Assembly (NCBI GenBank): GCA_012728375.1
Contig: JAAYFF010000061.1
Location: 1-33,645, forward strand
DNA length: 33,645 nucleotides
From: Bacillota bacterium
Lineage (GTDB): Bacteria > Bacillota > Dethiobacteria > DTU022 > UBA8154
Direction: 5' to 3'
The notes under the pieces were generated by a model, which was not told where the DNA came from, searched no databases, and saw nothing but the letters and a program-made list of their open reading frames with translations. The translations under genes were made by a program, and so were the position numbers. This document shows, in pieces, positions 2,507-31,115 of the stretch (positions are counted from its first letter, which is position 1; each line of letters begins with the position of its first letter).

Positions 2507-2545
2507 CCAGATCTCACCCTTTCCAAATTTTCTTGCCGGCCGCGG

Positions 2546-4710: not shown

Positions 4711-4723
4711 CTTCCCCCTCCAA

Positions 4724-5623: not shown

Positions 5624-5633
5624 TTTACCACCT

Positions 5634-6851
5634 CTAGCTCCTGTAAGAGCTGTTAATCTTAATATAATCATAGCTCAGGTCGCATCCCCAGGCAACGAGT
5701 TCCTCCCCGCCCATGTGCAGGTGAATCAAAACCGGGATCTCCTGCTCCTGTAAAATCTTCGCGGCCTTAACCTCGTCAAAGGGAAGCCCCCGGCCTGCTG
5801 CTGCAACCTGGAGATCGCCAAGAAATATATCCACCAGATGGGGCTCAAAATCAACCCCGGAATATCCCATTGCCGTAATAATGCGCCCCCAGTTGGCATC
5901 TTCGCCGAAAAAGGCCGTTTTAACGAGGGCAGAATTTAAAACGGCCCGGGCAAGTTTCCTGGCAGAATCATAATCAAGCGCTCCCCGCACTGTTAAACGG
6001 ATCACTTTACTGGCCCCTTCGCCATCCTTAACCAACTGGACGGCAAGATCGCGGCAGAGATGGTGAAGTCCCCGGCAGAATGCTTCTTTGGAAGCAGTGT
6101 CTTCTTCAGGCAACGGTTTCTTGCCGGCACAAGAAAAAAGGAGGGCCATGTCATTGGTAGAAGTGTCGCCGTCAACGGTGATTACGTTAAACGAGCGCTT
6201 AACGGCTTCCCGGAGGGCCCCTTGCAGGAAGCCTTGTTCCAGCTCAAGGTCGGTAAAAAGAAAGACCAGCATGGTGGCCATATCAGGGCAGATCATCCCC
6301 GCTCCCTTGGCCATTCCGGCAATCTTGAAAGAAAGCTGCTCTTTTCCCTCGACAACGACCCTATAGGCACTTTCTTTGGGAAAAGTGTCCGTTGTCATAA
6401 TCGCACGGGCTGCGTCCCCGCCGCCTGAGGGAGACAAAAGGGAGGCAGCCTTTTTTATCCCCGCGGCAATCTTTTCCATGGGGAGATACTGGCCAATCAC
6501 TCCCGTTGATGAGACCAAAACCTCCTCCGCCTTCACGCCCAGACAATCTGCAGCGATTTGTGCCGTCGCCAAGGCGTCCTGCAAACCCTGTTCACCTGTA
6601 CAGGCATTTGCATTTCCACTGTTGACAACCAAAGCTCTGACCGGGTTCTTGAGATGTTTTTCCGTAATCAGCAGCGGGGCTGCTTTAAATTTATTAGTAG
6701 TAAAAACTCCGGCGCAGACAGCAGGGCGGGTAAAATAAATAAGCGCCAGATCGTCCAAATTGTTTTTTTTAATTCCACAGCTTACTCCCGCGGCATGTAT
6801 GCCCGGGACAGAGGTAATATTGCCCTCAATTTTTTCCAGATTTATTTTCAT
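5634..6851 (-). CDS. argJ: bifunctional glutamate N-acetyltransferase / N-acetylglutamate synthase
   Basis: Moves the acetyl group from N-acetylornithine back to glutamate, so the pathway recycles acetyl groups. Some members also use acetyl-CoA for the first step. The 405-residue precursor carries the self-cleavage motif MATML at residues 191-195, with T193 as the expected new N-terminal nucleophile of the beta chain. The family is made as one chain and cut between A192 and T193. The gene sits 29 nt after argC and 10 nt before argB. With no argA or argE in the window, ArgJ is the expected source of both activities, although mono- versus bifunctionality cannot be read from sequence alone. Confidence 0.95.
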   Translation of the reverse strand: MKINLEKIEGNITSVPGIHAAGVSCGIKKNNLDDLALIYFTRPAVCAGVFTTNKFKAAPLLITEKHLKNPVRALVVNSGNANACTGEQGLQDALATAQIAADCLGVKAEEVLVSSTGVIGQYLPMEKIAAGIKKAASLLSPSGGGDAARAIMTTDTFPKESAYRVVVEGKEQLSFKIAGMAKGAGMICPDMATMLVFLFTDLELEQGFLQGALREAVKRSFNVITVDGDTSTNDMALLFSCAGKKPLPEEDTASKEAFCRGLHHLCRDLAVQLVKDGEGASKVIRLTVRGALDYDSARKLARAVLNSALVKTAFFGEDANWGRIITAMGYSGVDFEPHLVDIFLGDLQVAAAGRGLPFDEVKAAKILQEQEIPVLIHLHMGGEELVAWGCDLSYDYIKINSSYRS

Positions 6852-6880
6852 CGCCTTCGCGCCACCTTTTTGCTCTCAAC

Positions 6881-7918
6881 TTAAGGTCTTAGGGGAACCG
6901 CTTCCAAACCCGCTTCCTCGGGGAGCCCAAGCATTAAATTCATATTCTGGATTGCCTGTCCGGCAGCCCCTTTAACAAGATTGTCAATAGCTGAAAGAAC
7001 GATAAGCCTGCCGGTTCTTTGATCCCACTGCAAAGCCACATCACAATAATTGCTGCCATAAACGTTCCTGGTCTCCGGGAACATGGAAGGGGGCAACAGC
7101 CGAACGAATTTTTCCCCATCGTAAAATTCCCTGTAAAGGTTCACTATTTCTTCGTACGACAAATTGTCTTTTATTTTCAGATACATGGTGCTGAGAATTC
7201 CCCTGATCATCGGAACGAGGTGGGGGACAAAGGTAAAGTTAAATTCTTGCCCAAACAATTTCCCCAGTTCCTGTTCCATTTCCGGGGTATGCTGGTGGCG
7301 AGCCACTTTATAAGCGCGAAAGTTCTCCGCACATTCAGGAAAATGCAACCCCTGATTGGGGACCTTTCCTGCTCCCGATGTGCCGGACTTGGAGTCCACC
7401 ACAAGGGTTCCGGGTTCCAGAAGTTTTCGTGCAGCAAGGGGAGCCAGCCCCAGAATCACCGACGTGGGATAGCACCCGGGATTGGCCACCAAGACAGCCT
7501 CTTTAATCTCTTTCCTGTAAAGCTCCGGAAGGCCGTAAACGGCTTTTTCCAAGAGATGGGAGGCCGTGTGCTCCCTGCCATACCATTCCCGGTAGAGGTT
7601 TTCTTCAGTTAAACGAAAGTCTGCGCTCAGGTCAACAACCTTAAGGCCTGCGGTGTAGAGCTGGGAAACAATATCCATTGACTGGCCATGCGGAAGCGCG
7701 GAAAAAAACAAATCCGCTTTTTCAGCCGCTTCGTCAAGGGAAAATGAACTTAATTTCAAATCCGTGATCCCTCGGAAGTGGGGATGGACTTGGTCAAGGG
7801 ACTGGCCTGCAAAAGAATGGGAAGTAACGTACGTAACCTTGACTTCGGGATGGGCCAAAAGCAACCGTAAAAGTTCATTTCCTGTGTAGCCTGTAACGCC
7901 GATAATCCCCACGCGCAT
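6881..7918 (-). CDS. argC: N-acetyl-gamma-glutamyl-phosphate reductase
   Basis: NADPH-dependent reduction of N-acetylglutamyl phosphate to the semialdehyde. The 345-residue protein has the N-terminal dinucleotide-binding loop GVTGYTGNE (residues 7-15) and the catalytic cysteine C149 in NPGCYPTS. It is the first gene of the arg operon. The ATG at 7918 is preceded by AGGGGGG at good spacing, directly after the T-box leader, so argC is the gene immediately controlled by that riboswitch. Confidence 0.96.
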   Translation of the reverse strand: MRVGIIGVTGYTGNELLRLLLAHPEVKVTYVTSHSFAGQSLDQVHPHFRGITDLKLSSFSLDEAAEKADLFFSALPHGQSMDIVSQLYTAGLKVVDLSADFRLTEENLYREWYGREHTASHLLEKAVYGLPELYRKEIKEAVLVANPGCYPTSVILGLAPLAARKLLEPGTLVVDSKSGTSGAGKVPNQGLHFPECAENFRAYKVARHQHTPEMEQELGKLFGQEFNFTFVPHLVPMIRGILSTMYLKIKDNLSYEEIVNLYREFYDGEKFVRLLPPSMFPETRNVYGSNYCDVALQWDQRTGRLIVLSAIDNLVKGAAGQAIQNMNLMLGLPEEAGLEAVPLRP

Positions 7919-10278: not shown

Positions 10279-11127
10279 ATGGAAGTCTATGCCTTGATCG
10301 GCCCCAGCGGAACGGGAAAAAGCCATCACTGCTGCTCACTCGCCTATCAGGAAGGAATCGAATATATAATTGACGACGGTTTGCTGATAAAAGGCAATCA
10401 GATACTGGCGGGCCGTTCTGCCAAACGTGAAAATACCAAAATGGCCGCGACAAAAAGAGCCATCTTCCTTGATCCTGAACATGCCCTGCAGGTAAAGGGA
10501 AAAATACGGGAAGCCTGTCCCAAAAGCATCCTCGTTTTGGGAACATCGGAACGGATGATTAAAAGAATAACAGAACGTTTGGAAATTCCTTATCCCAAAA
10601 AAATATTTAATATTTATGACATCGCTTCGGAAAAAGAGATTGCCAAAGCATTGGAGAGTAGAGAAAAAGAAAATCGCCATGCCATCCCCATCCCCACATT
10701 TGCCATAGAAAAAGATTTTCCAGGCTTTTTTCTGGATTCGATCAGGGCATTTTTTAAAGGCAAAGATAGGGGGGAGGCTCGGCCGCACAACCTGGAACAC
10801 TCCATTGTCCGGCCTATTTACAGCAGCCTGGGTAATTATTATTTGCATGAAAACGCCATTGAACAGATTATAGTTTATCTCGCCGGTAAAAGGGAGGGTA
10901 TCACCAAAGCCCGGACAACAGCCCTGCTCTCCACCAGGAACGGAATGATAATAAATGTGCAGGTTGATATTCAGTATGGTTCGTTTTTTTTCCCCCGACT
11001 TCTCAAGGAAGTCCAGGAGGACATTAAAACCGGCTTGGAGTACCTGACCGGCCTGCAAATTGCCCAGGTAAATATTACAGCCAGGCGGCTTATTGTCCCG
11101 GGGAAAAAAAAGATAAAAAAAAATTAG
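10279..11127 (+). CDS. P-loop NTPase domain fused to an Asp23/YloU-like domain
   Basis: The 282-residue protein has a Walker A motif GPSGTGKS at residues 8-15 and a nucleotide-kinase-like N-terminal part (to about residue 165). It includes an IDDG stretch (31-34) that could act as the acidic metal-binding site, and a basic GRSAKRE segment. Residues 174-272 resemble Asp23/Gls24/YloU-family proteins: a predicted strand ending in VDIQYGS, then a helix with FPRLLKEVQEDIKTGLEYLTGL, shown here as two overlapping parts FPRLLKEVQEDIKTG and KTGLEYLTGL, then VNITARRL. The C-terminus is lysine-rich. The ATG has a GGAGGGGAC site. Its function is unknown; the Asp23-like part suggests binding to an envelope or fatty-acid-linked partner, while the P-loop suggests ATP-dependent switching. 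Both are inferences. Confidence 0.8.
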   Translation: MEVYALIGPSGTGKSHHCCSLAYQEGIEYIIDDGLLIKGNQILAGRSAKRENTKMAATKRAIFLDPEHALQVKGKIREACPKSILVLGTSERMIKRITERLEIPYPKKIFNIYDIASEKEIAKALESREKENRHAIPIPTFAIEKDFPGFFLDSIRAFFKGKDRGEARPHNLEHSIVRPIYSSLGNYYLHENAIEQIIVYLAGKREGITKARTTALLSTRNGMIINVQVDIQYGSFFFPRLLKEVQEDIKTGLEYLTGLQIAQVNITARRLIVPGKKKIKKN

Positions 11128-14448: not shown

Positions 14449-15750
14449 TCACTCTTGAAAGGGAGTAATAATGGAAACGGCATGAAATTCCTCTTTTAAA
14501 TGCTCGTGTAAAATTTTTTCCAGATCCGTAAGGGTGATCTCTTCCAGGACGTCCAGCACATCGAAGAAATCAATATCCCGGAAACGGTAAGCAAGATAAT
14601 TATTGGCAATAAATTCCAAGGAGTTAAAGCTGCGCAGAAAGTCTCCCCTCATTGTTCGCTTATGCCTGATAAAGCTTTCTTGCTTAAGTCCCTCTTTTTT
14701 TACCCTTTCAATCCCTTCCCAGATCTTTTCTACCAGCCTTTCAGGATCTTTTGTCCGCCCGCCAAGAAGCGTATATCCGTAAGTTGTTTCGGCTGTAAAG
14801 CCTGTAGAAAAATGCTCATCTAAAAGCCCGTCTTCATAAAGCTGTGTATACAGCTCTTCACTGCGTCCGAAAATCATCTCCAGGAGGAGCTCGGAGGCCA
14901 ATTCTTTAAAAAGCAATGCCTTGCCGTTAAGAGACGAATAAGTATCCTTAAAGCCCATATTAAAAATAGGTTGTGAGACAGATAGTTCCTGGACAATTTT
15001 TTTCTGTTTCACCGCCCTGTCTTCCTCAGGGTAGATGCGCCTAATATCAGGAGCAGGCGGTATGTGACGTTTGGCGATGTTTTCGTTGACCTGCTCGAAA
15101 ATTTCTTCCGGCAAAACATCGCCCGTTACAAAAATTGCCATATTTGACGGATGATAAAAAGTATGATAACATTTGTAAAGAATTTTTTCGGTTATCTTGC
15201 CGATGCTTTCAACGGAGCCGGCAATATCATTTTTCACAGGATGAGCCTGGTAAAGGGCACCTAAAAGATTAAAAAAAACTCGCCATTCGGGGTTGTCTTC
15301 GTACATCCTGATCTCCTGCTGAATGATTCCCTGTTCTTTGTCCACGCTCTCCTTGGTGAAAAACGGGCTTTGCACGAAATTCAAGAGAAGTTCAAAGTTT
15401 TCCCGGAAAAAATCCGTGCAGGAAAAAAGATACGTCGTATTGGTAAAGCTTGTAAAGGCATTGGACGAAGCACCGTATTGCGCGAACCTGTCGAAAACAT
15501 TACCATCTTCATCATCAAACAGCTTGTGTTCCAAGAAATGGGCAACGCCGTCCGGGACCTCGATTTCCTCCACACTGCCGTTCTTCGTCACGCAAAAATG
15601 ATTATCAATAGAGCCGAACCGGGTGGAAAAAATGGCATACTTTTTATTGTACCCCCGGCGGGGAAGAACAAAAAGCGCGGGACCGGGCTCCAAAGACGCA
15701 CAATAGACTTTTTCTCCCAGAGTTGTATCAGTTTTTATCTCCCAATCCAT
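14449..15750 (-). CDS. ymfH: M16-family zinc peptidase, YmfH type
   Basis: Pitrilysin/insulinase-like protein of 433 residues. It keeps the inverted zinc motif HFLEH (H71, E74, H75) and the downstream glutamate region EQGIIQQEI that supplies the third ligand. Two M16 domains are expected; only the N-terminal one carries the motif. In Bacillus, YmfF and YmfH belong to the set linked with 5-aminopentanol modification of elongation factor P. Here it lies 5 nt downstream of the ymfF-like gene in the same direction, consistent with a two-subunit enzyme. The EF-P role is transferred from family knowledge and not visible in the sequence. Confidence 0.87.
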   Translation of the reverse strand: MDWEIKTDTTLGEKVYCASLEPGPALFVLPRRGYNKKYAIFSTRFGSIDNHFCVTKNGSVEEIEVPDGVAHFLEHKLFDDEDGNVFDRFAQYGASSNAFTSFTNTTYLFSCTDFFRENFELLLNFVQSPFFTKESVDKEQGIIQQEIRMYEDNPEWRVFFNLLGALYQAHPVKNDIAGSVESIGKITEKILYKCYHTFYHPSNMAIFVTGDVLPEEIFEQVNENIAKRHIPPAPDIRRIYPEEDRAVKQKKIVQELSVSQPIFNMGFKDTYSSLNGKALLFKELASELLLEMIFGRSEELYTQLYEDGLLDEHFSTGFTAETTYGYTLLGGRTKDPERLVEKIWEGIERVKKEGLKQESFIRHKRTMRGDFLRSFNSLEFIANNYLAYRFRDIDFFDVLDVLEEITLTDLEKILHEHLKEEFHAVSIITPFQE

Positions 15751-15755
15751 AAATA

Positions 15756-17042
15756 CTATTCGCTCCCTTCATCGTCTACAGAGCGTAGAAAGTAAACGCT
15801 GTCCAAAACAACTTTTTGTGCTACTTCTACAACCTCATCCATCTCAATATTTTCAATTCTCTCCATTAAGCATTCCACCCTTTCATCCCTGTTTCCCACT
15901 ATTCCGTCCAAAAAGAAACCCAATAGGCTGGAAGGGCTGTCTCCAATAATTTTAAACTGGTTGAGCAAGGCTCTTTTTGTATTCTCCATCTCTTCTGAAG
16001 TGATCTTGCCCGCTTTAATATTTTCTACCTGTTCCTCGATAATCTCCCTTGCCTGCACGTAGTTCTTCGTATCGATACCCGATCCGATCAGTTGTATTCC
16101 TTTGTGCTTTTCTAACCTTGAAAAGGCGTAATAAGCCAGGCTGGCCTTTTCTCTCACGTTTTGGAAAAGCTTTGAGTGGGGGAAACCGCCCAAAATACCG
16201 TTATATAACAGCAAAGCCGGGTAATCCTCATCCCGGTAGACCGTATTGGTGCGGTATCCCAGGGTTAATTTGCCCTGATTCACAGGAAGCCTCTCTTCAA
16301 AGAAACGGGGTTTTCCCGGATTTTTCCGGACTTCAACTATCGGAAGGTCCAAAGGTATCCCCTTGCGCAAAAAAGAAAACGCTTCTTCAATAAGGGGGAA
16401 AGTTTCCCCGGGCTCGATTTCTCCCACGACAAATACATCGAGGGGATTCTCCTGCAAAAGTCTTTGATAATACCGATAAAGCCCGTCAGGGGTGATTCCG
16501 GCAAGATCCTCAATATTCCCGTATTTGTAAACCCCAAAACGTTCATTTGCACACATGTTTTGTATGCAGCGTTCCAGGGCATAATTTACTTTATCGTTTA
16601 CCAGCCCGCGGATCTCTTTTTCCAATTGTTCTTTTTCCTGAAGAACATATTCCTTTTTAAACGCACCGTTCTCACGGAAAGGGTCGGTTATAACGCTTTT
16701 TAAAACGGAAAGTCCCTGGCGCAACAGATCCTCTCCCGGTGCAAATTTATCGTGTATTATTTCCAGAGAAAAAGCAAGAATCTGCCTCTCGCCCAATTTG
16801 AGCACATCTGAACTAAGTTCCGCCCCGTAAAGCTCCTCCAAGCGAATTCTAATATCCCGGTATGTCGGATATTGTCCGGTTCCCCTCTCCAGGACAGCCG
16901 GCAAAAGGGCCGTCTGCGCCGCAGTCTCTTTTTCCAGCGATTGCTGCAAAAAAACAGCGATCAAAACCGTTTTAAATTTTTTAACCGGAACGAGGTGAAG
17001 ATTAATATTTGCAGGTAATGTCTTGCTTTCCAGGGCTAACAA
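15756..17042 (-). CDS. ymfF: M16-family protein, YmfF type (no zinc motif)
   Basis: 428 residues with M16 fold features, but the position expected to hold HxxEH instead reads LPAVLERGT, so this subunit should be catalytically silent. The C-terminal M16 stretch LAYYAFSRLEKHKGIQL matches the family. The start is TTG at 17042, with GAGAGG about 11 nt upstream; no better start is in frame. With YmfH it should make an active/inactive heterodimer, as known for other M16 pairs. A 90-nt gap to the gene upstream shows no clear promoter. Confidence 0.85.
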   Translation of the reverse strand: MLALESKTLPANINLHLVPVKKFKTVLIAVFLQQSLEKETAAQTALLPAVLERGTGQYPTYRDIRIRLEELYGAELSSDVLKLGERQILAFSLEIIHDKFAPGEDLLRQGLSVLKSVITDPFRENGAFKKEYVLQEKEQLEKEIRGLVNDKVNYALERCIQNMCANERFGVYKYGNIEDLAGITPDGLYRYYQRLLQENPLDVFVVGEIEPGETFPLIEEAFSFLRKGIPLDLPIVEVRKNPGKPRFFEERLPVNQGKLTLGYRTNTVYRDEDYPALLLYNGILGGFPHSKLFQNVREKASLAYYAFSRLEKHKGIQLIGSGIDTKNYVQAREIIEEQVENIKAGKITSEEMENTKRALLNQFKIIGDSPSSLLGFFLDGIVGNRDERVECLMERIENIEMDEVVEVAQKVVLDSVYFLRSVDDEGSE

Positions 17043-17132: not shown

Positions 17133-19508
17133 TTATATTTTGCAAAAATTACTCCCCAGAGCCAGAATGAGCAGGGGCAACCCTCCGTAAAGCATCGATG
17201 TTGCTGCTGCAACTACGCCGGAATCGTTAACAAGGAACGCTGTCACACTTGCCGCGATAATCCCTCCCATGGCCACCCGGAATCCCGGCTCCCCGGCAAA
17301 TATTTTTTTTATCATACCAAAGGGGTAATAGTACAGTATTGCGATTAAGGCAATCATTACCAACAGTGCCCGTGTCCAAAGGGAATAACGAACCAGCTTG
17401 TAGTTCATCTCCAATTTCCTGACGACTATGTTCAGCAGCTCCCCAAATCCCTCTTTTTGAATCAGTTCCAGGGTTCTCCCCAGGTGGGATACATTGGCGT
17501 CAGGACGGGGCAGGTTTAAGAAATAAAGCAGCAAACCCGCCAGCAAAAAAAATAGCAGCGGTATGAAGATAAGGGCAAGCACAGGCAGCCTCTTTTTTTT
17601 CTTGCTAAGTAAATAACTAAGCCGGGCAAGCGGTTTTCCCCCGTAAAGAAGGGCTACAAAGCCCCCAAGTGTGAGCGAAAGGGAAAGAGCTGCCGTCACA
17701 GCCCCTCCAAAATTAGCGCCAAAATCCGGGGAAGCCATCAGAAAAAGAATCATCACCGATAAAACGGCAAAAAGCAAGACCAAGATCCTGATCTCCGGGA
17801 AATTTCCCAAATGCTTCCTTTCTTCCCCTCCTCCCCTTCCTTTTAAACGGAGTGAGATAAGCGAGCCAAAACCCAGGATAAAGGAACCGATCATTACCCC
17901 CATATATTCATTGCCGATACCGTAAAACCGGGCTCCGCCGACGGGATCATAGCCCAAAAACGAACGGCTTTGCAGGTGCGCCCCCCCGAGGAGATCAGCT
18001 GCTAAAAAGCCAAAAACCAGCAAGCCTGCAACGGCAAAAATTGCCATGGGGTTTCGCCAAAAAAGTCCGGTTAAAACGACAAAAACCGCGGTCAAGACGG
18101 TAAGAAAACAAAAATTGACCAGATAAGATTCAGCCGGGAAAAAGTTAAAAGCCGGCGCAAGAAGAAAGGACAGGGGAAAATACAGCAGCCCATAAAAAGC
18201 CGGTTGCAATGAACGAACCGGATGAAAACGGGTTACAACACCTACCAGCCCGGCCACGACTAAAATAATCAACAAAAGCAGGTAACCCTTTATAATCGAA
18301 GAACGCTGCAGATACGTCCTGGACGTCCGCTCTGCAATAGCCGACACTTTTTGCAGGTGCCCTGCTGCCGGTTTTGTTTCCAAAGGCGCACCGCTAAAAT
18401 AAACAGAGGGAGCAAGGCTAAAATATTCCGCCACCGAAGGGGCAATATCAATATTAGCGACGATACCCGGCACCCTGGTTGTCTTGGATATCAGCATCCC
18501 CCCCTGCGGGTCTTCAGGGTTATAGTAAACAACCGGGGTAAGGCGATAGCCCCCCGCAACTGATGCCTGCGGCGGGGAGGGAACGGCAATTAACAGACGG
18601 CCTTTTAAGCCCGGTTCAGCAAGAAGCCCTTCCAGAAAAAGATCCAGCTCTTGAAAAGAACTCTCAAGAAGTTCCCCTCTCCTTTCTGCGGCAAGATGGC
18701 CCAGATAGGAATTTATCCTGCCGGTGTCTCCCCATTCCACAACAATAAAAGATGCCTTTTCCCTGCATGCCTTATAAGCATCCAGGTAAGCCCGGGCATT
18801 ACAGCGATGGCCAAAGGGAAAAAGCTGATCTTCTTTCAAGAGTGCGGCAGACACGTCCCCGTAAGCAACAGCGCCATCATTATTCATGGCAATTGTTACC
18901 GCCTGACGGCCTTCCTGATCAGTATCGGCATTACCCAAAACTGCTGCAGAAAGCCCTTTTCCCCCCAGCGCCTCCCCCAGGGCACCCAACAAAACCGGGT
19001 AAGGCCTGCTGCTGTTAAGAAGTTCGAGGGCCCCTGTATATGGATGCAAAACCTTTCCCGGTGGAACCTGATCTTTGCCGGAGTGACGCCGGTATAATAC
19101 TTCCACGGAAAGACTTTTTTCCTCCCGGTTATAGGCTTTGCGCGCGGTCCAGTTCCCCAGCAGACGGGCACCGGAGCCAATAGTCAGATACCCGCTTTCC
19201 GTTCCCAAAGAACCGGCTGTGTTTACGTTCATTAAACCAAGAGAACTCTCCCGCAGGAGCGAACTCAAAAGGGGACCGGAATATTGAAGAAGATCTTTAA
19301 ATGTTATTTTATCCAGGGTCAGCAAAATAAAGCTACAGGAAAGGGACTCCTTTTCCTGGTATGAATCCCCGGATACAGCAGTATTAACATTATGATTGCT
19401 TTCTGCGAAACAACGGACATTCTGCCAAAATGCCACTGAAACAAAAAGGGCCAACAAAAAAAGGAAAATAATTGCCTGGGAACGCCCTTTAATACACCGG
19501 TTGTTCAT
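17133..19508 (-). CDS. alkaline-phosphatase-like domain fused to polytopic membrane domain
   Basis: About 791 residues (numbering below from an in-frame ATG at 19520, which adds four). An N-terminal signal anchor (about 16-33) is followed by an extracytoplasmic domain (58-385) with traits of the alkaline phosphatase superfamily: a TLDK start strand, the stretch GTESGYLTIGSGAR and the late motif DIAPSVAEYF. From about residue 411 there are ten or eleven hydrophobic segments. Conserved-looking blocks are YGIGNEY (533-539) and NDSGV (765-769), near membrane ends. The ATG at 19508 has GAGGTG close upstream and overlaps the glycosyltransferase gene by 20 nt. Function unknown; transfer or trimming of a phosphorylated envelope glycan is a guess. 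Confidence 0.8.
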   Translation of the reverse strand: MNNRCIKGRSQAIIFLFLLALFVSVAFWQNVRCFAESNHNVNTAVSGDSYQEKESLSCSFILLTLDKITFKDLLQYSGPLLSSLLRESSLGLMNVNTAGSLGTESGYLTIGSGARLLGNWTARKAYNREEKSLSVEVLYRRHSGKDQVPPGKVLHPYTGALELLNSSRPYPVLLGALGEALGGKGLSAAVLGNADTDQEGRQAVTIAMNNDGAVAYGDVSAALLKEDQLFPFGHRCNARAYLDAYKACREKASFIVVEWGDTGRINSYLGHLAAERRGELLESSFQELDLFLEGLLAEPGLKGRLLIAVPSPPQASVAGGYRLTPVVYYNPEDPQGGMLISKTTRVPGIVANIDIAPSVAEYFSLAPSVYFSGAPLETKPAAGHLQKVSAIAERTSRTYLQRSSIIKGYLLLLIILVVAGLVGVVTRFHPVRSLQPAFYGLLYFPLSFLLAPAFNFFPAESYLVNFCFLTVLTAVFVVLTGLFWRNPMAIFAVAGLLVFGFLAADLLGGAHLQSRSFLGYDPVGGARFYGIGNEYMGVMIGSFILGFGSLISLRLKGRGGGEERKHLGNFPEIRILVLLFAVLSVMILFLMASPDFGANFGGAVTAALSLSLTLGGFVALLYGGKPLARLSYLLSKKKKRLPVLALIFIPLLFFLLAGLLLYFLNLPRPDANVSHLGRTLELIQKEGFGELLNIVVRKLEMNYKLVRYSLWTRALLVMIALIAILYYYPFGMIKKIFAGEPGFRVAMGGIIAASVTAFLVNDSGVVAAATSMLYGGLPLLILALGSNFCKI

Positions 19509-20670
19509 TGCGCACCTCATTGTACCTCTGCAAGATTATGCTTTCATAAACCTTCTCCGTTGCCTGCAACATACTCTTTTCTGTAAAATTTTCAGTGATC
19601 TCTGCAGAAGCTGCCTTCCCCATTTTTACCCTCTCCAGCGGCCGCAAGGCAAGCCATTCCATGTTACGGGCCAGAGCGCCAACATCTTCCGGCGGAAACA
19701 GGAGTCCTGTTTTCATGTGGCTAATAATTTCAGGAATTCCGCCTGTTGCAGAAGCGATACGCGCCACTCCTGCTGCCCCGGCTTCCAGCAAGGAAATGGA
19801 AAGCCCTTCACTGCGGGAGGCCAGAACAAAAATATCCAGAGAAGAATAAAAGTCCGGCATAGCTTTAACTTCTCCCAGGAAAAAAATTCGTTTCTCCATC
19901 CCCATGAAAAGGCTCAGCCGTTCAAGCTGTTCCCTTGCGGGTCCCTCACCGGCAATGAAAAAACCGGCTCCCGGGACATTTTTTGCCACCCGGGCAGCCG
20001 CCCGTATAAAGAGATCAAACCCTTTCTGGGAAACAAGCCGCCCTGCAGTCCCCACCTTAATCCCCCTCCACTTACAAAGGGAGGTTAAAGCTTTGTCCTT
20101 GCAAATCTCGGACTCCCCCGGGGTACAACGCGGTTTAACAGCAAACAAACAGGGATCAATCCCGTTGTAGATTTGCAGGATTTTAGACGGAGGAATACCG
20201 AAACCGGCCAGTTCATTGCGCAAAGCCCCGGATACAGCAATATAATATGTTGCCGCGGGATCCAAAAATTTTACAGCCCAACGGAACAAGCGCTCCGCAA
20301 TAAAGCTTTCCGCAGGATAAGCCAAAGAATTATGAACAGTTACCAGCGCCGGGCAATGTAAAAGCCGGGCTGCAGGGAGCCCCACCATAGCTGCCCTGTA
20401 CCCGTGAATGTGCATCAAGTCGGGAAGAACTTCCCGGCAGATATGCAACATGCGCATTAAAATAGGGAGATCCCGCCGCGGAGCAAAGCCGTCTTCCAGG
20501 GAAAGGGGAAAATAATGAACGTTTCCCCGAAATTCCGGCGGAAAAGGAAAAGTAGGCGCTGCCAGGAAGACATCCCAGCGATCAGGAAAATAATTCAACA
20601 GCGAACGCAGATGAGTCAGCATCCCCCCTGCCAGCGGTCTCGTTACATAGAGTATTTTTTTCCTCCTCAT
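19489..20670 (-). CDS. family-4 glycosyltransferase
   Basis: 393-residue GT-B fold enzyme, cytoplasmic or membrane-peripheral, that would transfer a sugar from a nucleotide donor. The C-terminal donor domain starts around residue 203 (GIKVGTAGRLVSQKG) and has the EX7E motif (E288 in SRSEGL, E296 in LLEAG). The N-terminal half has the glycine-rich loop RPLAGGM and HIHGYRA. It overlaps the membrane-protein gene downstream by 20-32 nt, so the two are probably co-translated and act in one envelope-glycan pathway. The ATG at 20670 carries an AGGAGG just inside the coding sequence; GGAAAG, nine nt upstream, may serve as its site. Donor and acceptor cannot be named. Confidence 0.9.
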   Translation of the reverse strand: MRRKKILYVTRPLAGGMLTHLRSLLNYFPDRWDVFLAAPTFPFPPEFRGNVHYFPLSLEDGFAPRRDLPILMRMLHICREVLPDLMHIHGYRAAMVGLPAARLLHCPALVTVHNSLAYPAESFIAERLFRWAVKFLDPAATYYIAVSGALRNELAGFGIPPSKILQIYNGIDPCLFAVKPRCTPGESEICKDKALTSLCKWRGIKVGTAGRLVSQKGFDLFIRAAARVAKNVPGAGFFIAGEGPAREQLERLSLFMGMEKRIFFLGEVKAMPDFYSSLDIFVLASRSEGLSISLLEAGAAGVARIASATGGIPEIISHMKTGLLFPPEDVGALARNMEWLALRPLERVKMGKAASAEITENFTEKSMLQATEKVYESIILQRYNEVRNEQPVY

Positions 20671-23012: not shown

Positions 23013-24173
23013 TTACTCTTTGGGCTTTAAAAGCCTTTTTGCACTAACAAGGACTTCTTTCCCGTATTTATCCCTCAATCTATCTTTAACCACCATGATT
23101 TTGTTTTCATTTTCGGCTGCAGAGGAAAGGAGAGATAATTGTTGGTTCTTTTCGAGTCCCGATACCCTTACACCAACCAGACGCCACGGGGGCTTGTTAC
23201 AGTGACGAAGAAACAGTCTTTCAACCAGATGATAAATTTGCAGGTCTTTATCTGTAGGCTCTTGGAGGGTAATATCTCTCGAGATTGTAGTGAAGTCGGC
23301 AAAGCGAAGCTTTAAAGATATAGTTTTGGCCCGTAACCTCTTGGAGCGCAGGCGATAGCCTACTTCTTCAGATAGAGCTAAAAGAGTAGTTAATACTTGC
23401 TCGCGGTCAAAAACATCCTGTGGAAACGTCGTTTCTTCCGAAATGGACTTGGTTTTATGTATTAGTTCAAGTTCCCGGTTATCGTAACCGTTAGCATAGT
23501 TTTTAAAAATTACTCCGTTTTTACCAAAGGCTGAAATAAGCGCTTTATCGGGGAATTTTGCCAGATCCCCCACGGTTTTAATACCGTAAAGGTAACATTT
23601 CTTCTCTGTTGACGATCCTATCCCAGGAATTATTTTTACCGGAAGAGGCCAGATTATGTCCGGCACATCTTCAGGCCAAATTGCCTTTATATTATCAGGT
23701 TTTGCAAGATTACTAGCTATTTTCGCCAGGAGTTTATTAACGGATATTCCTACACTAATGGGCAATTTAAGCTCTTTCTTTACTGCAGCACGAATTTGTT
23801 GGGCTGTTTCTACTCCAGTCCCTTTTTTTACCCCCAAATATGCCTCGTCAATGGAAACGGGTTCAATATCAGGCGTAAACCGTTCAAATATCGTCATGAC
23901 CTGCTTTGATACTTCTTTATACCTCCGCATATTAACCGGCAGTAGAATTGCTTCAGGACATAGTTCCAGGGCTTTCTTCATCGGCATGGCTGATCTGACA
24001 CCGTATTCTCTCGCTTCGTAAGAACAGGTGGAAACTACTCCGCGGGCTTTTGGATTACCGCCGACAATTACAGGCTTACCCTGGAGTTCAGGATGATCAA
24101 GCTGTTCGACCGAGGCGAAAAAGGCATCGAGGTCGCAAAGGAGAATGTCCTGCTTCATTTGAAAAGTTTTCAC
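23013..24173 (-). CDS. dinB: DNA polymerase IV (Y family)
   Basis: Error-prone translesion polymerase of 386 residues. Catalytic acidic residues are in LLCDLDAFFASVEQ (D14, D16) and SIDEAYLG (D109, E110), and the little-finger domain follows. QQLSLL near the C-terminus may be the beta-clamp binding peptide. The GTG at 24173 overlaps the TGA of a short upstream frame (GTGA), a typical coupling arrangement; the ATG at 24158 is the alternative and gives the more usual N-terminus. I found no recognisable Gram-positive LexA box upstream, so SOS control is not shown by the sequence. Confidence 0.93.
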   Translation of the reverse strand: MKTFQMKQDILLCDLDAFFASVEQLDHPELQGKPVIVGGNPKARGVVSTCSYEAREYGVRSAMPMKKALELCPEAILLPVNMRRYKEVSKQVMTIFERFTPDIEPVSIDEAYLGVKKGTGVETAQQIRAAVKKELKLPISVGISVNKLLAKIASNLAKPDNIKAIWPEDVPDIIWPLPVKIIPGIGSSTEKKCYLYGIKTVGDLAKFPDKALISAFGKNGVIFKNYANGYDNRELELIHKTKSISEETTFPQDVFDREQVLTTLLALSEEVGYRLRSKRLRAKTISLKLRFADFTTISRDITLQEPTDKDLQIYHLVERLFLRHCNKPPWRLVGVRVSGLEKNQQLSLLSSAAENENKIMVVKDRLRDKYGKEVLVSAKRLLKPKE

Positions 24174-24624: not shown

Positions 24625-24825
24625 TCAAAGAATTAATGATTCTTGGATCGCACGATTTAACTTATCATAGGAGTTCCATGCCTCTTGGGGCGTATTTACG
24701 CTAAGAGAATAAAATTCCTTCAGCATCTTTAATATCGCTGCCGAATCAAACCCGGTTTTATTTTTTAGCCAACTTTCGGAAAAGGTCTTGCTAAAATTAC
24801 AGAACAGTATTTTTCCTGCCATAAT
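24625..24825 (-). CDS. possible small protein downstream of the ADP-ribosylglycohydrolase
   Basis: A 66-residue frame starting at an ATG at 24825 inside the last codons of the glycohydrolase gene (29-nt overlap). The sequence has plausible amphipathic helices (SAAILKMLKEFYSLSV, EAWNSYDKLNRAIQESL). There is no clear ribosome-binding site, so it would depend on coupling. It abuts the end of the broken plus-strand gene. It may equally be a non-coding frame. Confidence 0.3.
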   Translation of the reverse strand: MMAGKILFCNFSKTFSESWLKNKTGFDSAAILKMLKEFYSLSVNTPQEAWNSYDKLNRAIQESLIL

Positions 24826-25909
24826 CATGATAAATGTATTTATGCGCCCAGACATCATCCCGGTAGGAGCCATATTCTGTTAATTTACAATCGTTATACA
24901 AATCATCTGCTATTTCAATGATAAAGTCTTTAAGCTCCAGATGTTCAAGATACTTTTCAGGTATGCCCCGCAAGCCAAGATAGGCTCCCATTATGTTACC
25001 GGTAACCGCACCGGTTGAGTCGCTGTCTCCGCCGTGGTTAACCGCGGCGATGACGGCTTTATCAAAGCTGCTTTCGTATTTCAAAGAACAATAGATTGCT
25101 ATTGCCAATGTTTCTTCTGCCACCCATCCTTTCCCCAGTTCCTTAATTGCCTCAAAATCGTTCATGTTTTTCGATGACAGGTCAATAGCCTTTTGCATCA
25201 GAGTTAACAGCTCACGAAGATGCCTGGCTTTCGGAAACAGTTTTTCCATCGCTTCCATAGAGTCTTGTACTGCAGCAAGCAGGGTAATATTGGAATTATG
25301 TGCCACCATGTGAATGATGTGTACCAGCGCAGCTGCCGGAATATACCCAAGTTCATGACCGTGTGTAATGGCAGCAGCCTCAGCTCCAATCATATCAATC
25401 CTTTCTTGTGTGTAGCGCTTCCCTTCAAAATATAAACCAATGGGAGCGACGCGCATAATTCCTCCGCAGCCTTTGCTCTGATTGATTGGTTTTTCTATTG
25501 TGCCGTTTGCTCCTTGCTCTATGGCTGAAAGGCAAGTATTTCCCGGCGCCCGTGAGGCGTGAAGTTCCGGAATATTGACTAACCATGAGTAACCGCCTTT
25601 TGCGATGCCTTTAAATTGGGTGCTATACCAGTCTTTATAGCATAAAGCAATGTAATATGAATATTCCCCCATAATACCTCTTGTCATTCCCCTTGTTGTT
25701 CCCAAGAGAAGGCCATTAGCTGTAAACAGAGTCATCTGCGTGTCATCAGAAATCTCAGCCACACCATTTACCAAAGAATATTCAGTGATTCCGTTTTCCC
25801 CATACTTTTGAAAAATGCTCTTGGCATCTAAAAACTCCACCGGATATCCCAGGGCATCGCCTGCAGCTCCTCCGATGAGACACCCTCTGAATTTATCAAT
25901 ATCTTTCAT
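24797..25909 (-). CDS. ADP-ribosylglycohydrolase (DraG family)
   Basis: 370 residues from the ATG at 25909, which has GGGGG nine nt upstream; ATG 25918 is in frame but too close to that site. The dinuclear-metal ligands of the family are visible: SDDT (57-60, numbered from 25918) and DSDST (298-302) in NHGGDSDSTGAVTGNIMGA. GDALG near the N-terminus also fits. Family members remove ADP-ribose from proteins (e.g. arginine in DraG) or from nucleic acids or small molecules. No ADP-ribosyltransferase or macrodomain gene is nearby, so the target is unknown. Confidence 0.9.
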   Translation of the reverse strand: MKDIDKFRGCLIGGAAGDALGYPVEFLDAKSIFQKYGENGITEYSLVNGVAEISDDTQMTLFTANGLLLGTTRGMTRGIMGEYSYYIALCYKDWYSTQFKGIAKGGYSWLVNIPELHASRAPGNTCLSAIEQGANGTIEKPINQSKGCGGIMRVAPIGLYFEGKRYTQERIDMIGAEAAAITHGHELGYIPAAALVHIIHMVAHNSNITLLAAVQDSMEAMEKLFPKARHLRELLTLMQKAIDLSSKNMNDFEAIKELGKGWVAEETLAIAIYCSLKYESSFDKAVIAAVNHGGDSDSTGAVTGNIMGAYLGLRGIPEKYLEHLELKDFIIEIADDLYNDCKLTEYGSYRDDVWAHKYIYHDYGRKNTVL

Positions 25910-26101
25910 CACAATCATCCCCCAGACAAAAAAAGCCTCTTTTTAAATTTTTAACAGCCTTAAAAAAGCATGAAAACTACTCAGATGAGTAGCTTATTGT
26001 TAGAACTTAAATGGAGCCTTTAAAAAAAATATTTATTTTTTTATTTTGCCGAACAACCAACAATGAACAGGGATTTTTTTCGTCCAAGTAAAAAAGCTTT
26101 A

Positions 26102-26882: not shown

Positions 26883-27092
26883 TTCTCACACTCCGCTTCA
26901 CGATAGGGTGAAAAATTATCAATCGGTGCCCTTAGATTGCCCCTATGCTAACTTTTCCGAAAGATTAGCTTTGTATACGCAAAAATAAACAGGAAAGTTA
27001 CTGTCTGCATGGCATCAAAGAACAAATTTTCTTTCCAAGAAAATTTGTTGTGCGGATGGTATCCTTTTTTTATTCCTGGAAATACTGGAATT

Positions 27093-28760
27093 ATGAAACT
27101 CAAATTTGATATTCTTAACAGAATGCGTTTATTATTTCCCGGCAAGAAAAAAAAGAGACAGCCGGAACACAAAAGAATGCATACTGATAACCGTGATGTC
27201 AGCCAGCGCGAAGCAGATGTAAAAAGAACGCCTTTGGTTGCAGATCTTGAGGAAAACCTGCAGCGCATTGCAAGTATTTGCGGCAACAGTTACGACTTAA
27301 ATATTATGCGTTTCCTGGCAGGACCCCATGAGGTAAATGCAGCTCTTGTGTTCCTTGACGGCATGGTTAATAAAGATGCAATCAACAACTTAATGCGGAT
27401 CGTAAAAATAGATACCTTCAAAACAGGTATCAAGGGTGTTCACAAGGAGGAACTTTACCAAACTCTCCAAAAAAGACTGCTGACCGATGAAAACAGGGAA
27501 GCTGAAAATATGGAAGATCTTTACGAGGGAGTCTCACTGGGCGAAGCAGCCTTGCTTATTGACGGAACTGCCAGGGCTATACTCTACGAAAGCAAGGGGT
27601 GGAAAAGCCGCGCCCTTACGGAACCGGAATCCGAAAGTATCATCAGAGGCCCACGGGAAGGTTTTACGGAAAACATCAGGGACAATACTTCCCTGATCAG
27701 GCGCCGGATTCGCAGTCCAAACCTGTGGATGGAAAGCATGAGGGTGGGAAGCCTGACGAAAACGGAAGTTGTTGTTGCTTACATCAAAGGCCTTGCTGGA
27801 GAGGAAATCCTGGGAGAGCTGCGCTCCCGTCTGGAACGCATCGATATTGACGGGGTTTTGGAAAGCGGAGTTATTGAAGAATTTATCGACGATGCCCCTT
27901 ACTCCCTCTTTCCGATGATTTTTCGCACCGAAAGGCCGGATCGCGTGGCTGCCAATCTTTTAGAGGGACGGGTGGCCGTATTTACCAACGGAACGCCTTT
28001 TGTCCTGGTCTTGCCGGCTGATTTTTTCATGTTTCTCCAGGCTCCGGACGACTACAATGAAGTCTGGCCGATCGGATCGTTTATTCGCTTTCTGCGCATA
28101 ATTTCCTATATAATTTCTATCTTTCTACCGGGTATATACGTTTCCGTACTAAACTTCCATCCCGAGCTTTTGCCGACCTCCCTGCTGCTGACCATACAGC
28201 AAACAAGAGAGGGGGTCCCCTTTCCCGTTGTTGCAGAGATAATTCTTATGGAGGCAGCTTTTGAGATCCTCAGGGAGGCGGGGATACGCCTTCCCAGAGT
28301 AATCGGCCCGGCTATCAGCATTGTAGGCGCGTTGATCCTGGGCGAAGCGGCCATCCGTGCGGGAATTGTGTCTCCCGGTGTGGTCATTATCGTGGCCTTT
28401 ACCGCCATTGCTTCCTTTTCCACTCCTACTTTTAGCCAGGCAATAGCAGCCCGCATCCTGCGTTTCGGTGTTATTTTTCTAGGAGCGCTTATAGGACTTC
28501 TGGGAATTCAGTTTGCCTTCCTCGTTTTAATTATTCACCTGGTTTCTTTGCGCTCCTTCGGCTATCCTTTCATGGCCCCCCTGGGGCCGCTCATCTGGCG
28601 GGATCTAAAAGATGCCCTTTTCAGGTCTTTTTGGTGGAAACAGGTTTACCGGCCCACGCTTCTGGGCTTTCGCGAGCCTAAGCGCCAGCCGGCAGGACAG
28701 GGACCGCATACGCCTGCAGAAAAGAAACAAAGCATGCAAAACCGCGGAAAGGGGAAATAG
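27093..28760 (+). CDS. gerA: spore germination receptor subunit A
   Basis: GerA-family protein of the germinant receptor in the spore inner membrane, 555 residues from the ATG at 27093. A hydrophilic N-terminal region (with ADLEENLQRIASICGNSYDL) is followed by the conserved LLEGRVAVFTNGTPFVLVLP and about five membrane segments in the last 260 residues, then a basic tail. An in-frame ATG at 27009 would add 28 residues across a 13-bp hairpin and has no ribosome-binding site; the ATG at 27093 has only a weak GGAA. The gene heads gerA-gerB-gerC-small protein. Sigma-G control is usual for this class, but I cannot identify a convincing site. Confidence 0.92.
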   Translation: MKLKFDILNRMRLLFPGKKKKRQPEHKRMHTDNRDVSQREADVKRTPLVADLEENLQRIASICGNSYDLNIMRFLAGPHEVNAALVFLDGMVNKDAINNLMRIVKIDTFKTGIKGVHKEELYQTLQKRLLTDENREAENMEDLYEGVSLGEAALLIDGTARAILYESKGWKSRALTEPESESIIRGPREGFTENIRDNTSLIRRRIRSPNLWMESMRVGSLTKTEVVVAYIKGLAGEEILGELRSRLERIDIDGVLESGVIEEFIDDAPYSLFPMIFRTERPDRVAANLLEGRVAVFTNGTPFVLVLPADFFMFLQAPDDYNEVWPIGSFIRFLRIISYIISIFLPGIYVSVLNFHPELLPTSLLLTIQQTREGVPFPVVAEIILMEAAFEILREAGIRLPRVIGPAISIVGALILGEAAIRAGIVSPGVVIIVAFTAIASFSTPTFSQAIAARILRFGVIFLGALIGLLGIQFAFLVLIIHLVSLRSFGYPFMAPLGPLIWRDLKDALFRSFWWKQVYRPTLLGFREPKRQPAGQGPHTPAEKKQSMQNRGKGK

Positions 28761-28762
28761 CT

Positions 28763-29881
28763 CTGTTTACAGAAAAAATTGTCGGCCGGCAAATCCTTTT
28801 TATTTTTTTTATCGTACGTTCCACGATCCTGTTTTCATTGCTGCCGGGCACACCGGAAGTCTCTCAGGACGCGTGGGTGTCGGCGATTATTTCTTTTTTC
28901 TCCAGCGCAGCCCTTGTGTTTATTATTGTCAGGCTGACGCTGGCATTTCCCGGGAAAAGCCTGGTGCAGTACAGCCAGGAACTTCTGGGAGGTTTTATGG
29001 GAAAGCTGCTTTCTTCTTTTTATCTATTACTTTTCCTCTTTATGGCGGGAACGGACCTGCGCATTTACGGGGAGGTAATTAAGACCAGCTTCCTCCCGGA
29101 GACCCCTCTGGTTGTTACCATGGCTATCATGGTCTTGATTTCAGTAATGGTCGTCTTCAGCGGCCTGGAGCCCCTTGGAAGATGTGCGGATATTATTTTC
29201 CCCCTGTTTCTGCTTACGATCCTGGCCAGTCTGTTTTTCCCCCTTTTATATGCCGATTTTGGCAATCTGCAGCCTGTTTTGGCCCGCGGCTGGTCACCGG
29301 TGCTGCTCGCCTCTGTGACACCCACTACTATTACAGCCCAGTACACCAACCTGACCATGCTCGCCCCCTCAGTACAGGAACCCCGGAAATCCCTCATGAA
29401 GGCAGCTATGTGGTCACTGCTGGGCTCTTCTGCTGTCCTCCTTTTTTTTATCATAGCAGTAATTGCCGTTCTGGGTCCGAGCGAGGGCTTTCGGGCGACT
29501 TTTCCCGTCTTTAAAATGATCCGGTCCATTAGCATCAGCGCATTCCTGGAAAGAATAGAAGCCCTTACTATCTTCCCCTGGGGCATGGGGCTGTTTGTTA
29601 ATCTTTCCCTTAACCTGTACTCCGGGTCAAAAGGGTTATCCCAGGTTTTCGGCCTTACGGACAACCGCTCCCTTATTTTGCCTATGGCGGTAATCTGGGT
29701 GGCTTTCAGCTTCCAGGGATACAAAGATTCTTTTGAAGTCCTTCAGTTCTTTAACCCCCTTTTCCACTTTGCGGGGTTTTATTTCTTCCTGACCGTCCCC
29801 CTGATTGTATTGTGGACGGCTTACCTGCTGAAAAAGCCCCGGCAAAAACAGCCCCAGGATAAAACAAAGGAAAAGAGATAA
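28763..29881 (+). CDS. gerB: spore germination permease subunit B, likely CTG start
   Basis: GerB-family protein of the APC-type transporter fold with about ten membrane helices, 372 residues if started at CTG 28763. The N-terminal family sequence TEKIVGRQILFIFFIVRS is open in frame directly after the gerA stop, and no ATG, GTG or TTG occurs before TTG 28838, which would delete the first helix. AAGGGG lies at good distance before CTG 28763. It overlaps no gene but follows gerA by 2 nt. The germinant-binding pocket is expected here; the ligand is unknown. Confidence 0.88.
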   Translation: MFTEKIVGRQILFIFFIVRSTILFSLLPGTPEVSQDAWVSAIISFFSSAALVFIIVRLTLAFPGKSLVQYSQELLGGFMGKLLSSFYLLLFLFMAGTDLRIYGEVIKTSFLPETPLVVTMAIMVLISVMVVFSGLEPLGRCADIIFPLFLLTILASLFFPLLYADFGNLQPVLARGWSPVLLASVTPTTITAQYTNLTMLAPSVQEPRKSLMKAAMWSLLGSSAVLLFFIIAVIAVLGPSEGFRATFPVFKMIRSISISAFLERIEALTIFPWGMGLFVNLSLNLYSGSKGLSQVFGLTDNRSLILPMAVIWVAFSFQGYKDSFEVLQFFNPLFHFAGFYFFLTVPLIVLWTAYLLKKPRQKQPQDKTKEKR

Positions 29882-29900
29882 CACAGGAGGCAAAGATTAT

Positions 29901-31115
29901 TTGCGTGAGAAAAGGTTCACTGTTTTTTTAACATCATTTATTTTGCTTTGCTTAGCCTTTTTCCCGGCCGGATGCTGGGACCGCAGGGAGCCGGACCTGC
30001 TGGGGATCGTCACTATCGCTGCCTTTGACATTGATGAACAGTCCGGCCTTTTCAGGGTATATGCCCAGGTGAACAATCCTGTAGGAGGCGGGCAGCAGCA
30101 AAGCAGCGGGGGTGACGGCAGTCAGGGAAGTTCCTCCGCCTGGGTTGTAGAAACCACGGGGCACACTATTTACGAAGCTGTTATAAATATCGAGCTGATT
30201 TCCTCAAGGCGCCTCTTCTGGTCTCATGTTAAAGCAGTTCTTTTTTCGGAAAAACTTGCCCGGGAAGGGATCAGGCCGATACTTGATTTCCTCGACAGAG
30301 AGCGCCAGGTCCGCTTGATTGCCCAGCCCTTCGTTGTGCAAGGGGATTTACGCCGGCTGCTGGAAGCGAATTTTCCTATGGAAGTGGAGGGCGGAGAAGC
30401 AATGAGCAAGCAGTCCTTCAGTATCATGCAGGAATCATCCTTTTTATCCGAAGTGGAATCGCTGCTCATACTTTTCCGCAACATCTCCATTCCCGGGATA
30501 GAAATAAATATGCCCAGGTTGACTGTCCTGGCAAATGAAGGAGAAAACGAAGAAAAACCGTCCGGGAAGCCCAACCCTGTAAAAATTTCCGGTATCGGTA
30601 TTTTCCGCGGGGATAAGCTTGTTGGTTTTTTCGATGAAAAAGAAACGGCAGGATATAACTGGCTGACGGGAAATATACAACGTCACAACCTGATCTTGCA
30701 ATGTCCGGGCAGTGAAGATGACTATATGACAGTACAAGTATTTGATTCTTCGGTAAAGCTTACACCTGAGATCAAAGATGATGAAGTGCGCTTTAAAGCC
30801 TCCGTTAGCGCGGAAGGCCGCCTTCAGGACTTTACCTGCCCGCAATTTCCTTTAGAGCGGGAATTTATTGATTCGCTCAACAGGCGCATGGCCACGGCCA
30901 TCCGCAATGAAATAACGAGCAGCCTGGAAAAAGCCAGAGAACTGGAATCCGACATCTTCGGCCTGGGGAATATCATTTACCGGACCAGGAATGAAGATTG
31001 GAAGCGTCTGGGGGACAATTGGCGGGAAATTTTTCCCGGCATTATGGTGGATATTGAGGTCGAAGCTAAAATTTTGCGTCACGGATTGATTTTAGAGCCG
31101 CTACAAATCCAATAA
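29901..31115 (+). CDS. gerC: spore germination lipoprotein, Ger(x)C family
   Basis: 404-residue lipoprotein subunit of the germinant receptor. The signal peptide ends in the lipobox FPAGC with C25 as the lipidation site, followed by WDRREPDLLGIVTIAAFDID, the typical start of this family. The rest is an extracytoplasmic soluble domain. The start is TTG at 29901, with GGAGG about 10 nt upstream. It follows gerB by 19 nt. It should sit on the outer face of the spore inner membrane, next to GerA and GerB. Confidence 0.93.
   Translation: MREKRFTVFLTSFILLCLAFFPAGCWDRREPDLLGIVTIAAFDIDEQSGLFRVYAQVNNPVGGGQQQSSGGDGSQGSSSAWVVETTGHTIYEAVINIELISSRRLFWSHVKAVLFSEKLAREGIRPILDFLDRERQVRLIAQPFVVQGDLRRLLEANFPMEVEGGEAMSKQSFSIMQESSFLSEVESLLILFRNISIPGIEINMPRLTVLANEGENEEKPSGKPNPVKISGIGIFRGDKLVGFFDEKETAGYNWLTGNIQRHNLILQCPGSEDDYMTVQVFDSSVKLTPEIKDDEVRFKASVSAEGRLQDFTCPQFPLEREFIDSLNRRMATAIRNEITSSLEKARELESDIFGLGNIIYRTRNEDWKRLGDNWREIFPGIMVDIEVEAKILRHGLILEPLQIQ

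Follow-up and report, generated by a model that had tools for sequence, protein, structure and literature searches.

The window analyzed here is a whole stretch of 33,645 nucleotides (nt) from a Bacillota bacterium (contig JAAYFF010000061.1, assembly GCA_012728375.1). On its minus strand it carries a gene for a cytosolic GT4-type glycosyltransferase, overlapped by an open reading frame (ORF) encoding a large membrane protein, here called MEM. Both genes had been placed there by an earlier note made from the sequence alone, and both were confirmed. MEM combines an N-terminal membrane anchor, an extracytoplasmic domain with the alkaline phosphatase (AlkP) superfamily fold and a polytopic membrane domain. 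It is probably a GT-C-type glycosyltransferase of the SEDS, O-antigen ligase or Wzy kind, which would polymerize or transfer a glycan carried on undecaprenyl pyrophosphate (Und-PP) at the outer face of the membrane. The reading rests on data obtained in this analysis, namely the AlkP fold, the loss of its canonical catalytic residues, the conservation of motifs on the predicted outer face, the pairing of the two genes and co-occurrence with other genes. The two genes and the domains of MEM are as follows.

19489..20670, minus strand: GT4-type glycosyltransferase (cytosolic), 393 amino acids (aa); PF13439 at E 1.7e-25, PF00534 at E 2.6e-36
17133..19520, minus strand: MEM, ORF for an AlkP-fold domain plus a polytopic, GT-C-like membrane protein (predicted)
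19489..19508, minus strand: overlap of the two genes, 20 nt with ATG 19508 and 32 nt with ATG 19520
19413..19481, minus strand: N-terminal membrane anchor of MEM, residues 14-36 (model helix; best 19-residue hydropathy 2.27)
18369..19346, minus strand: extracytoplasmic AlkP-fold domain, residues 59-384 (VIA-align, conservation in 80 sequences, hhalign to phosphoglycerate-mutase-like sequences)
17145..18359, minus strand: membrane domain, residues 388-792, 11 predicted transmembrane helices, SEDS/WaaL-like architecture (model, VIA-align, hhalign, topology)

Both Pfam families of the GT4 gene exceeded their cut-offs. Library scans matched MEM to nothing in Pfam (E 0.1) or NCBIfam (E 0.01). The stop of MEM is at 17133; with ATG 19520 as its start the protein has 795 aa, and with ATG 19508 it has 791. 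Since a purine-rich stretch lies just 5' of each of these candidate starts, either overlap is possible. The 20-nt overlap described previously therefore holds with ATG 19508 and becomes 32 nt if ATG 19520 is used.

The GT4-MEM pair is real and widespread, and not a chance occurrence. MEM is single-copy in the genome of the window, and relatives were encoded in 26 of 60 related genomes. One scan of 84,980 genomes yielded at least 597 pattern-matched stretches, of which at least 533 encode a MEM relative, mostly from Bacillota, and these relatives are spread widely in clostridia. The 80 best MEM loci were retained; nearly all were from Bacillota, plus one bin labelled Armatimonadetes. Alignment A2 comprised 79 of these 80 loci and the window (L088 was incomplete), and alignment A3 comprised 78 and the window (L054 and L088 were excluded). 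In 57 of the 80 loci a GT4 gene matching the same profile lies on the strand of MEM at a distance of no more than 600 nt, upstream in 46 and downstream in 11. GT4 was not adjacent in 20 loci, and in a further three the contigs were too short. GT4 is therefore the commonest partner of MEM, yet not an obligate neighbour. In several Clostridioides-like genomes a further MEM paralog (732 aa) lies far from the first (e.g., G186:C1:54557-56707), and L067 and L105 are two MEM copies within one Thermoanaerobacterium strain.

The full structure model of MEM had a mean predicted local distance difference test score (pLDDT) of 90.1 and a predicted template modelling score (pTM) of 0.88. In VIA-align, residues 59-384 matched AlkP-superfamily structures at Z of about 20-22, the best matches at Z 21.8 being 3q3q (265 aligned residues, 3.8 Å) and 5vpu (252 aligned, 3.1 Å). 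Comparison by hhalign with ten phosphoglycerate-mutase-like (iPGM) sequences gave E 2.1e-8 and a probability of 95. On the model, the AlkP superfamily fold of this domain is confirmed, as had been proposed for an extracytoplasmic domain. The YejM periplasmic domains 6vc7 and 6vat were also among the fold matches. Searches of PDB sequences gave 0 matches at E 10 with MEM as query, two chance-level matches with alignment A1 and a best E of 0.051 with A2. Matches of single MEM members to DAP10, Zip and other hidden Markov models were discounted as chance-level.

The residues of the AlkP domain suggest that it is not a canonical two-metal enzyme, and the usual catalysis is unlikely. No column of the domain had His in at least 40 of the 80 sequences, and the Asp-His pair of iPGM aligned onto a P-x-P stretch. 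The probable nucleophile position, 107, was placed from secondary structure where the first long helix begins (modelled as 107-116), and it varied among the 80 sequences (S17 T14 P12 E8 A7 Q5 V4). The earlier note had suggested the removal or transfer of a phosphoryl group and had named loss of the metal-site residues across the family as its refutation; this loss was found. Other residues were kept, with D70 in 60/80 sequences, D265 in 79/80 and R268, S345, T348 and D358 each in 80/80. Because D265, R268, S345, T348 and D358 are conserved, some pocket or interface must still be under selection.

The membrane domain modelled alone had a pLDDT of 92.2 and a pTM of 0.92. Its 11 predicted helices after the AlkP domain are consistent with helix hydropathy and loop charges and, together with the N-terminal anchor, agree with the ten or more helices expected beforehand. 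Loops assigned to the inside were generally richer in Lys/Arg. Basic residues including R531, R701 and K702 also occur on the outer side, in loop 512-536 and in the amphipathic helix 692-712, which is weakly hydrophobic (family-mean hydropathy 0.44).

VIA-align of the membrane domain was run on the 1000 best chains from Foldseek. Each of the six highest rows came from a SEDS protein or an O-antigen ligase: RodA (6bar, Z 9.5, 216 aligned, 4.7 Å; 6bas, 9.4; 6pl6, 8.3), FtsW (8p1u, Z 9.2; 8bh1, Z 8.8) and WaaL (7tpg, Z 8.0, 246 aligned, 6.0 Å). These Z values of 8.0-9.5 fall short of the value of about 13 under which the tool advises caution for helical bundles, so the rows are a lead only; they deserve attention because all six belong to one enzyme group. 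Rows below them were designed helical proteins, the GT-C enzyme AftA (Z 6.4) and many G-protein-coupled receptors at Z less than 6. A family missing from such fold rows may still be related.

Profile comparison pointed to the same group. In global mode, hhalign aligned MEM with Wzy_C proteins over their full length (360 columns) at E 1.3e-4 and an HHalign probability of 26.8. Controls consisted of UbiA, PF00953 enzymes, three further polytopic clusters, reversed alignments and 20 shuffles; control cluster 7 and the UbiA control are one family, and cluster 19 belongs to the PF00953 control. They gave E of 0.025 to 0.97, and the non-shuffled ones aligned at their ends only. The positive control, SEDS against Wzy, gave E 2.3e-5. 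For these comparisons the SEDS set comprised 26 of the 27 loci L229-L255 and the Wzy set 21 of the 30 loci L259-L288, selected by frame length. The assignment of the membrane domain to GT-C is best described as a strong lead.

The strongly conserved motifs of MEM, including R531, H679, R701 and K702, are all predicted to lie on the outer face. By predicted topology the outer-face motifs are YDP..GARFYGIGNEYMG, SP..GAN.GG, SH.GR, RK..MN..L.RYS.W and NDSG. The following were located in the window.

17898..17930, minus strand: RFYGIGNEYMG, residues 531-541, outer loop motif (aligned to a Wzy_C stretch)
17475..17489, minus strand: SHLGR, residues 678-682 (H679 in 80/80)
17376..17420, minus strand: RKLEMNYKLVRYSLW, residues 701-715, amphipathic (R701, K702 and W715 each in 80/80)
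17217..17228, minus strand: NDSG, residues 765-768, between the last two helices and predicted to face outward (topology)

The two motifs pointed out earlier, YGIGNEY and NDSGV, are present at residues 533-539 and 765-769 and strongly conserved. R531, Y533, G536, N537 and E538 were each found in 80/80 sequences, and N765, D766 and G768 in 76/80 with three to four gaps (four at D766 and G768). A comparison with polymer ligases had been recommended for these motifs, and it proved apt, yielding both the SEDS/WaaL rows and the Wzy_C alignment, in which R531-YGI-GN-EYMG of MEM falls on the R...GNPN..yl stretch of Wzy_C proteins. In GT-C enzymes of the SEDS/ligase kind, Und-PP is reported to be bound by one or two conserved Arg residues on the outer face, and the acceptor to be activated by a His or Asp (PMC10920833; PMC10449877). 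By sequence and predicted topology, R531 and R701 of MEM are such conserved outer-face Arg residues, one of them in an amphipathic helix. R531, R701, K702 and H679 thus fit the published Und-PP site by analogy, with RKLEMNYKLVRYSLW as a candidate pyrophosphate-binding helix and H679 as a candidate acceptor-activating base.

MEM was compared with the known systems it resembles. SEDS proteins (RodA, FtsW; CAZy GT119) gave the top structural rows (Z 8.3-9.5) and are likewise multi-helix membrane enzymes with a conserved Arg and a conserved acidic or His residue on the outer face. MEM differs from them in having no Pfam SEDS or profile match, an AlkP-fold N-terminal domain and other genomic partners, and ordinary SEDS genes were also carried by the genomes of MEM relatives (16/16). 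The GPI ethanolamine-phosphate transferases PIG-N, PIG-O and PIG-G have a similar architecture, with an N-terminal anchor, an AlkP domain outside and many C-terminal membrane helices. Their AlkP domains are catalytic, whereas the metal and nucleophile residues of MEM are not conserved and no Pfam link was found. YejM/PbgA also has an AlkP fold outside the membrane. It is an AlkP-like protein with a regulatory use whose membrane helices precede the AlkP fold, while the 11-helix domain of MEM comes after it. O-antigen ligase and Wzy_C proteins (WaaL, GT121, BP-Pol) share with MEM the WaaL row over 246 residues and the Wzy_C alignment, but the similarity is weak and MEM has a fused AlkP domain. 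BP-Pols are reported to be maximally diverse in sequence (PMC10920833), unlike MEM, which keeps long invariant motifs across genera.

A second set of genes goes with MEM. On another contig of the same genome, an operon adjoining spo0A encodes SteA, an MctB-like protein, a GT2 glycosyltransferase, a PF00953 phosphoglycosyltransferase, DUF3866 and SpoIIM. In Tepidanaerobacter-type loci, divergent SteA-MctB-GT2-PF00953 genes lie beside MEM itself. Co-occurrence was analyzed in a class sample of 62 genomes that were at least 90% complete. MEM was counted in 41 of them, down from 45 after G029, G038, G054 and G071, each with a sole match of 17-20 bits, were dropped. Agreement with MEM was 57/62 for SteA, 56/62 for DUF3866 and 54/62 for SpoIVA. 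In the Alkaliphilus order, MEM and DUF3866 were present in the identical 97 of 198 genomes and neither was found in the other 101. DUF3866 was also present in all 16 genomes reached via MEM loci. The best reading is that MEM goes with this second operon located elsewhere (SteA, MctB, GT2, phosphoglycosyltransferase and DUF3866), so the pathway is wider than the two genes to which it had been assigned. Open-access full text held almost no literature on DUF3866, one paper being found. DUF3866 and SpoIIM lie within the SteA operon at L112 4551-6409 (G000:C73). G071 has SpoIVA yet no real MEM, SteA or DUF3866 match, and G033 and G081 have SpoIVA, SteA and DUF3866 and no MEM match, being natural exceptions or assembly gaps.

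The corresponding genes of Clostridioides difficile are described in a 2025 study by CRISPR interference and transposon sequencing, in which CDR20291_1053-1057 and CDR20291_1124 are reported as essential genes without a physiological pathway (PMC12548448). The encoded proteins have 373 aa (1053), 291 aa (1054), 230 aa (1055, GT2), 274 aa (1056, glycosyl transferase) and 355 aa (1057, DUF3866); CDR20291_1124 is a membrane protein of 723 aa encoded downstream of alaS (PMC12548448). In the Clostridioides-like genome G186, ORFs of 373, 291, 230, 274 and 355 aa follow spo0A, and a 723-aa MEM ORF lies after AlaRS and IreB and before RuvX. The sizes 373, 230, 274, 355 and 723 were common to 6 of 20 genomes fetched. 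Because all six protein sizes and the alaS synteny match in G186, CDR20291_1124 is with high probability the MEM ortholog, a judgement made from sizes and synteny. CDR20291_1053-1057 and 1124 are almost certainly the same genes as the SteA operon and MEM.

In that study, knockdown of CDR20291_1053-1056 led to chaining and short, swollen, phase-bright cells (1057 was not targeted), and knockdown of CDR20291_1124 to chaining and curved, phase-bright cells. Genes of the PS-II glycopolymer gave chains of short, swollen and sometimes phase-bright cells (PMC12548448). Such a PS-II-like phenotype is as expected if these genes form another undecaprenyl-linked glycopolymer pathway, or if the carrier is trapped in blocked intermediates. 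For the three wall polymers known from C. difficile, the genes of biosynthesis are reported to share a single locus (PMC10100865), and judged by locus tag MEM and the SteA operon appear to lie outside it. The study leaves these genes unassigned, and the parts of it covered draw no link between 1124 and 1053-1057. Text searches of open-access papers for an already described system returned, for the C. difficile tags and DUF3866, PMC12548448 only; being confined to such papers, they do not establish absence in print.

From these observations a pathway may be proposed. A WecA/MraY-like phosphoglycosyltransferase (PF00953) would put the first sugar on undecaprenyl phosphate, GT2 and the MEM-adjacent GT4 would add further sugars in the cytoplasm, and a putative flippase would turn the lipid-linked product outward. 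In the last step MEM would transfer the glycan: R531 and R701/K702 would hold the pyrophosphate, and H679 would activate the acceptor. The AlkP-fold domain might be a retired enzyme that binds the growing chain, a lipid or some partner protein. The pathway may be tied to cell separation through SteA and the MctB-like protein, which is SteB in mycobacteria. We infer the substrate, the catalytic roles, flipping, the sequence of the steps and the part played by the AlkP domain. The fold and profile comparisons do support an envelope pathway for a glycan, with sugar transfer in the cytosol and a further step outside the membrane, as anticipated in the earlier note. More broadly, and with somewhat less than even confidence, clostridia may make an undescribed essential envelope glycan by means of two loci, the last enzyme being a polymerase or ligase of GT-C type that bears a pseudo-AlkP domain, and SteAB coupling synthesis of the glycan to daughter-cell separation. 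On this two-locus reading, the SteAB of mycobacteria and corynebacteria would control a glycopolymer machine in clostridia.

Several results weigh against MEM as a GT-C enzyme in such a pathway. Apart from the Z values below the caution level and the low HHalign probability, Foldseek by itself matched the membrane domain to nothing (best E 0.32). The direct MEM-SEDS profile comparison gave no match (global E 0.57), which argues against a close SEDS relation. MEM had no Pfam Wzy_C or FTSW_RODA_SPOVE match at E 0.1, and both families were missing among the nine Pfam families listed for 19 members at E 1. R531, R701 and H679 were likened to GT-C sites by sequence and predicted topology. The 20 loci with no adjacent GT4 also count here. 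The co-occurrence counts are raw and ignore the kinship of genomes, and in the class sample SpoIVA tracks MEM almost equally: 36 of the 41 MEM genomes have it, as do 3 of the other 21. Finally, the authors of the C. difficile study warn that the CDR20291_1124 phenotype may be due to polarity on alaS (PMC12548448).

Four other explanations were weighed. MEM might itself be the flippase that moves the lipid-linked glycan outward, with another protein polymerizing or ligating it: MEM is polytopic and paired with a cytosolic GT4, and no flippase was identified among the SteA operon genes SteA, MctB, GT2, PF00953, DUF3866 and SpoIIM. This is unlikely, as the conserved motifs are all on one, the outer, face in a GT-C-like manner, the top fold rows were SEDS and WaaL, and WzxE turned up in Foldseek at no better than chance level (E 2.4). 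Similarly improbable is a non-catalytic role akin to that of YejM/PbgA, with MEM sensing or scaffolding envelope synthesis and both its AlkP and GT-C domains degenerate. The YejM fold matches speak for it, as does the regulatory role reported for SteAB in mycobacteria (PMC12977500), but the His, Arg and Lys of the membrane domain are invariant in 80 diverse sequences and resemble a retained active site.

The close tracking of SpoIVA, together with the position of the SteA operon after spo0A, would suit a sporulation gene whose link to this operon merely reflects retention by spore formers. We regard this as quite unlikely, since the probable C. difficile ortholog is reported to be essential in vegetative growth (PMC12548448) and five MEM genomes (G042, G070, G074, G077 and G084) had no SpoIVA match, though these are draft assemblies. 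An active AlkP domain, acting as a phospho-, phosphoglycerol or phosphoethanolamine transferase in the style of PIG-N or LtaS with the membrane domain as anchor or gate, is very unlikely. The clear fold and the retention of D70, D265, R268 and D358 do indicate a selected pocket, but conservation is strongest in the membrane domain, and an active phosphatase or phosphotransferase was rejected on the missing conserved His, the alignment of Asp-His onto P-x-P and the variable nucleophile position.

The MEM family, with more than 500 members and still no matching Pfam or NCBIfam model, is probably a new variant within a known enzyme class, its activity and substrate being proposed from sequence and structure models. 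If the glycosyltransferase reading is true, six C. difficile genes reported to be essential without a physiological pathway (PMC12548448) would gain a function class and a pathway. GT-C enzymes would gain a polymerase or ligase type with a repurposed phosphatase domain, the presence of SteAB in clostridia would be explained, and MEM would be an outer-face target, neither MEM nor DUF3866 being found in 101 of 198 genomes of the order.

The remaining neighbours of MEM vary by lineage and include YfmF/YfmH, menaquinone genes, trigger factor/ClpP, LepA, an IreB-sized ORF and RuvX, or the divergent SteA operon. In the window, two tRNA-Arg genes lie upstream of the pair on the opposite strand, and yfmF, yfmH and proS lie downstream of MEM. 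The yfmF and yfmH genes (EF-P modification-associated M16 proteins) occupy 14449-17042, and YfmF clusters are present in 21 of the 80 MEM loci. GerXA- and GerXC-type spore germination genes at 27009-31115 suggest that the host is probably a spore former. An arginine biosynthesis operon, argC-J-B-D-argF-argG, lies at 1283-7918. A plus-strand ORF at 10279-11127, possibly coding and overlapped by a 240-aa minus-strand ORF, has weak AmaP/Asp23 similarity and scattered P-loop matches. DNA polymerase IV is encoded at 23013-24173 and an ADP-ribosylglycohydrolase-family protein at 24797-25918.

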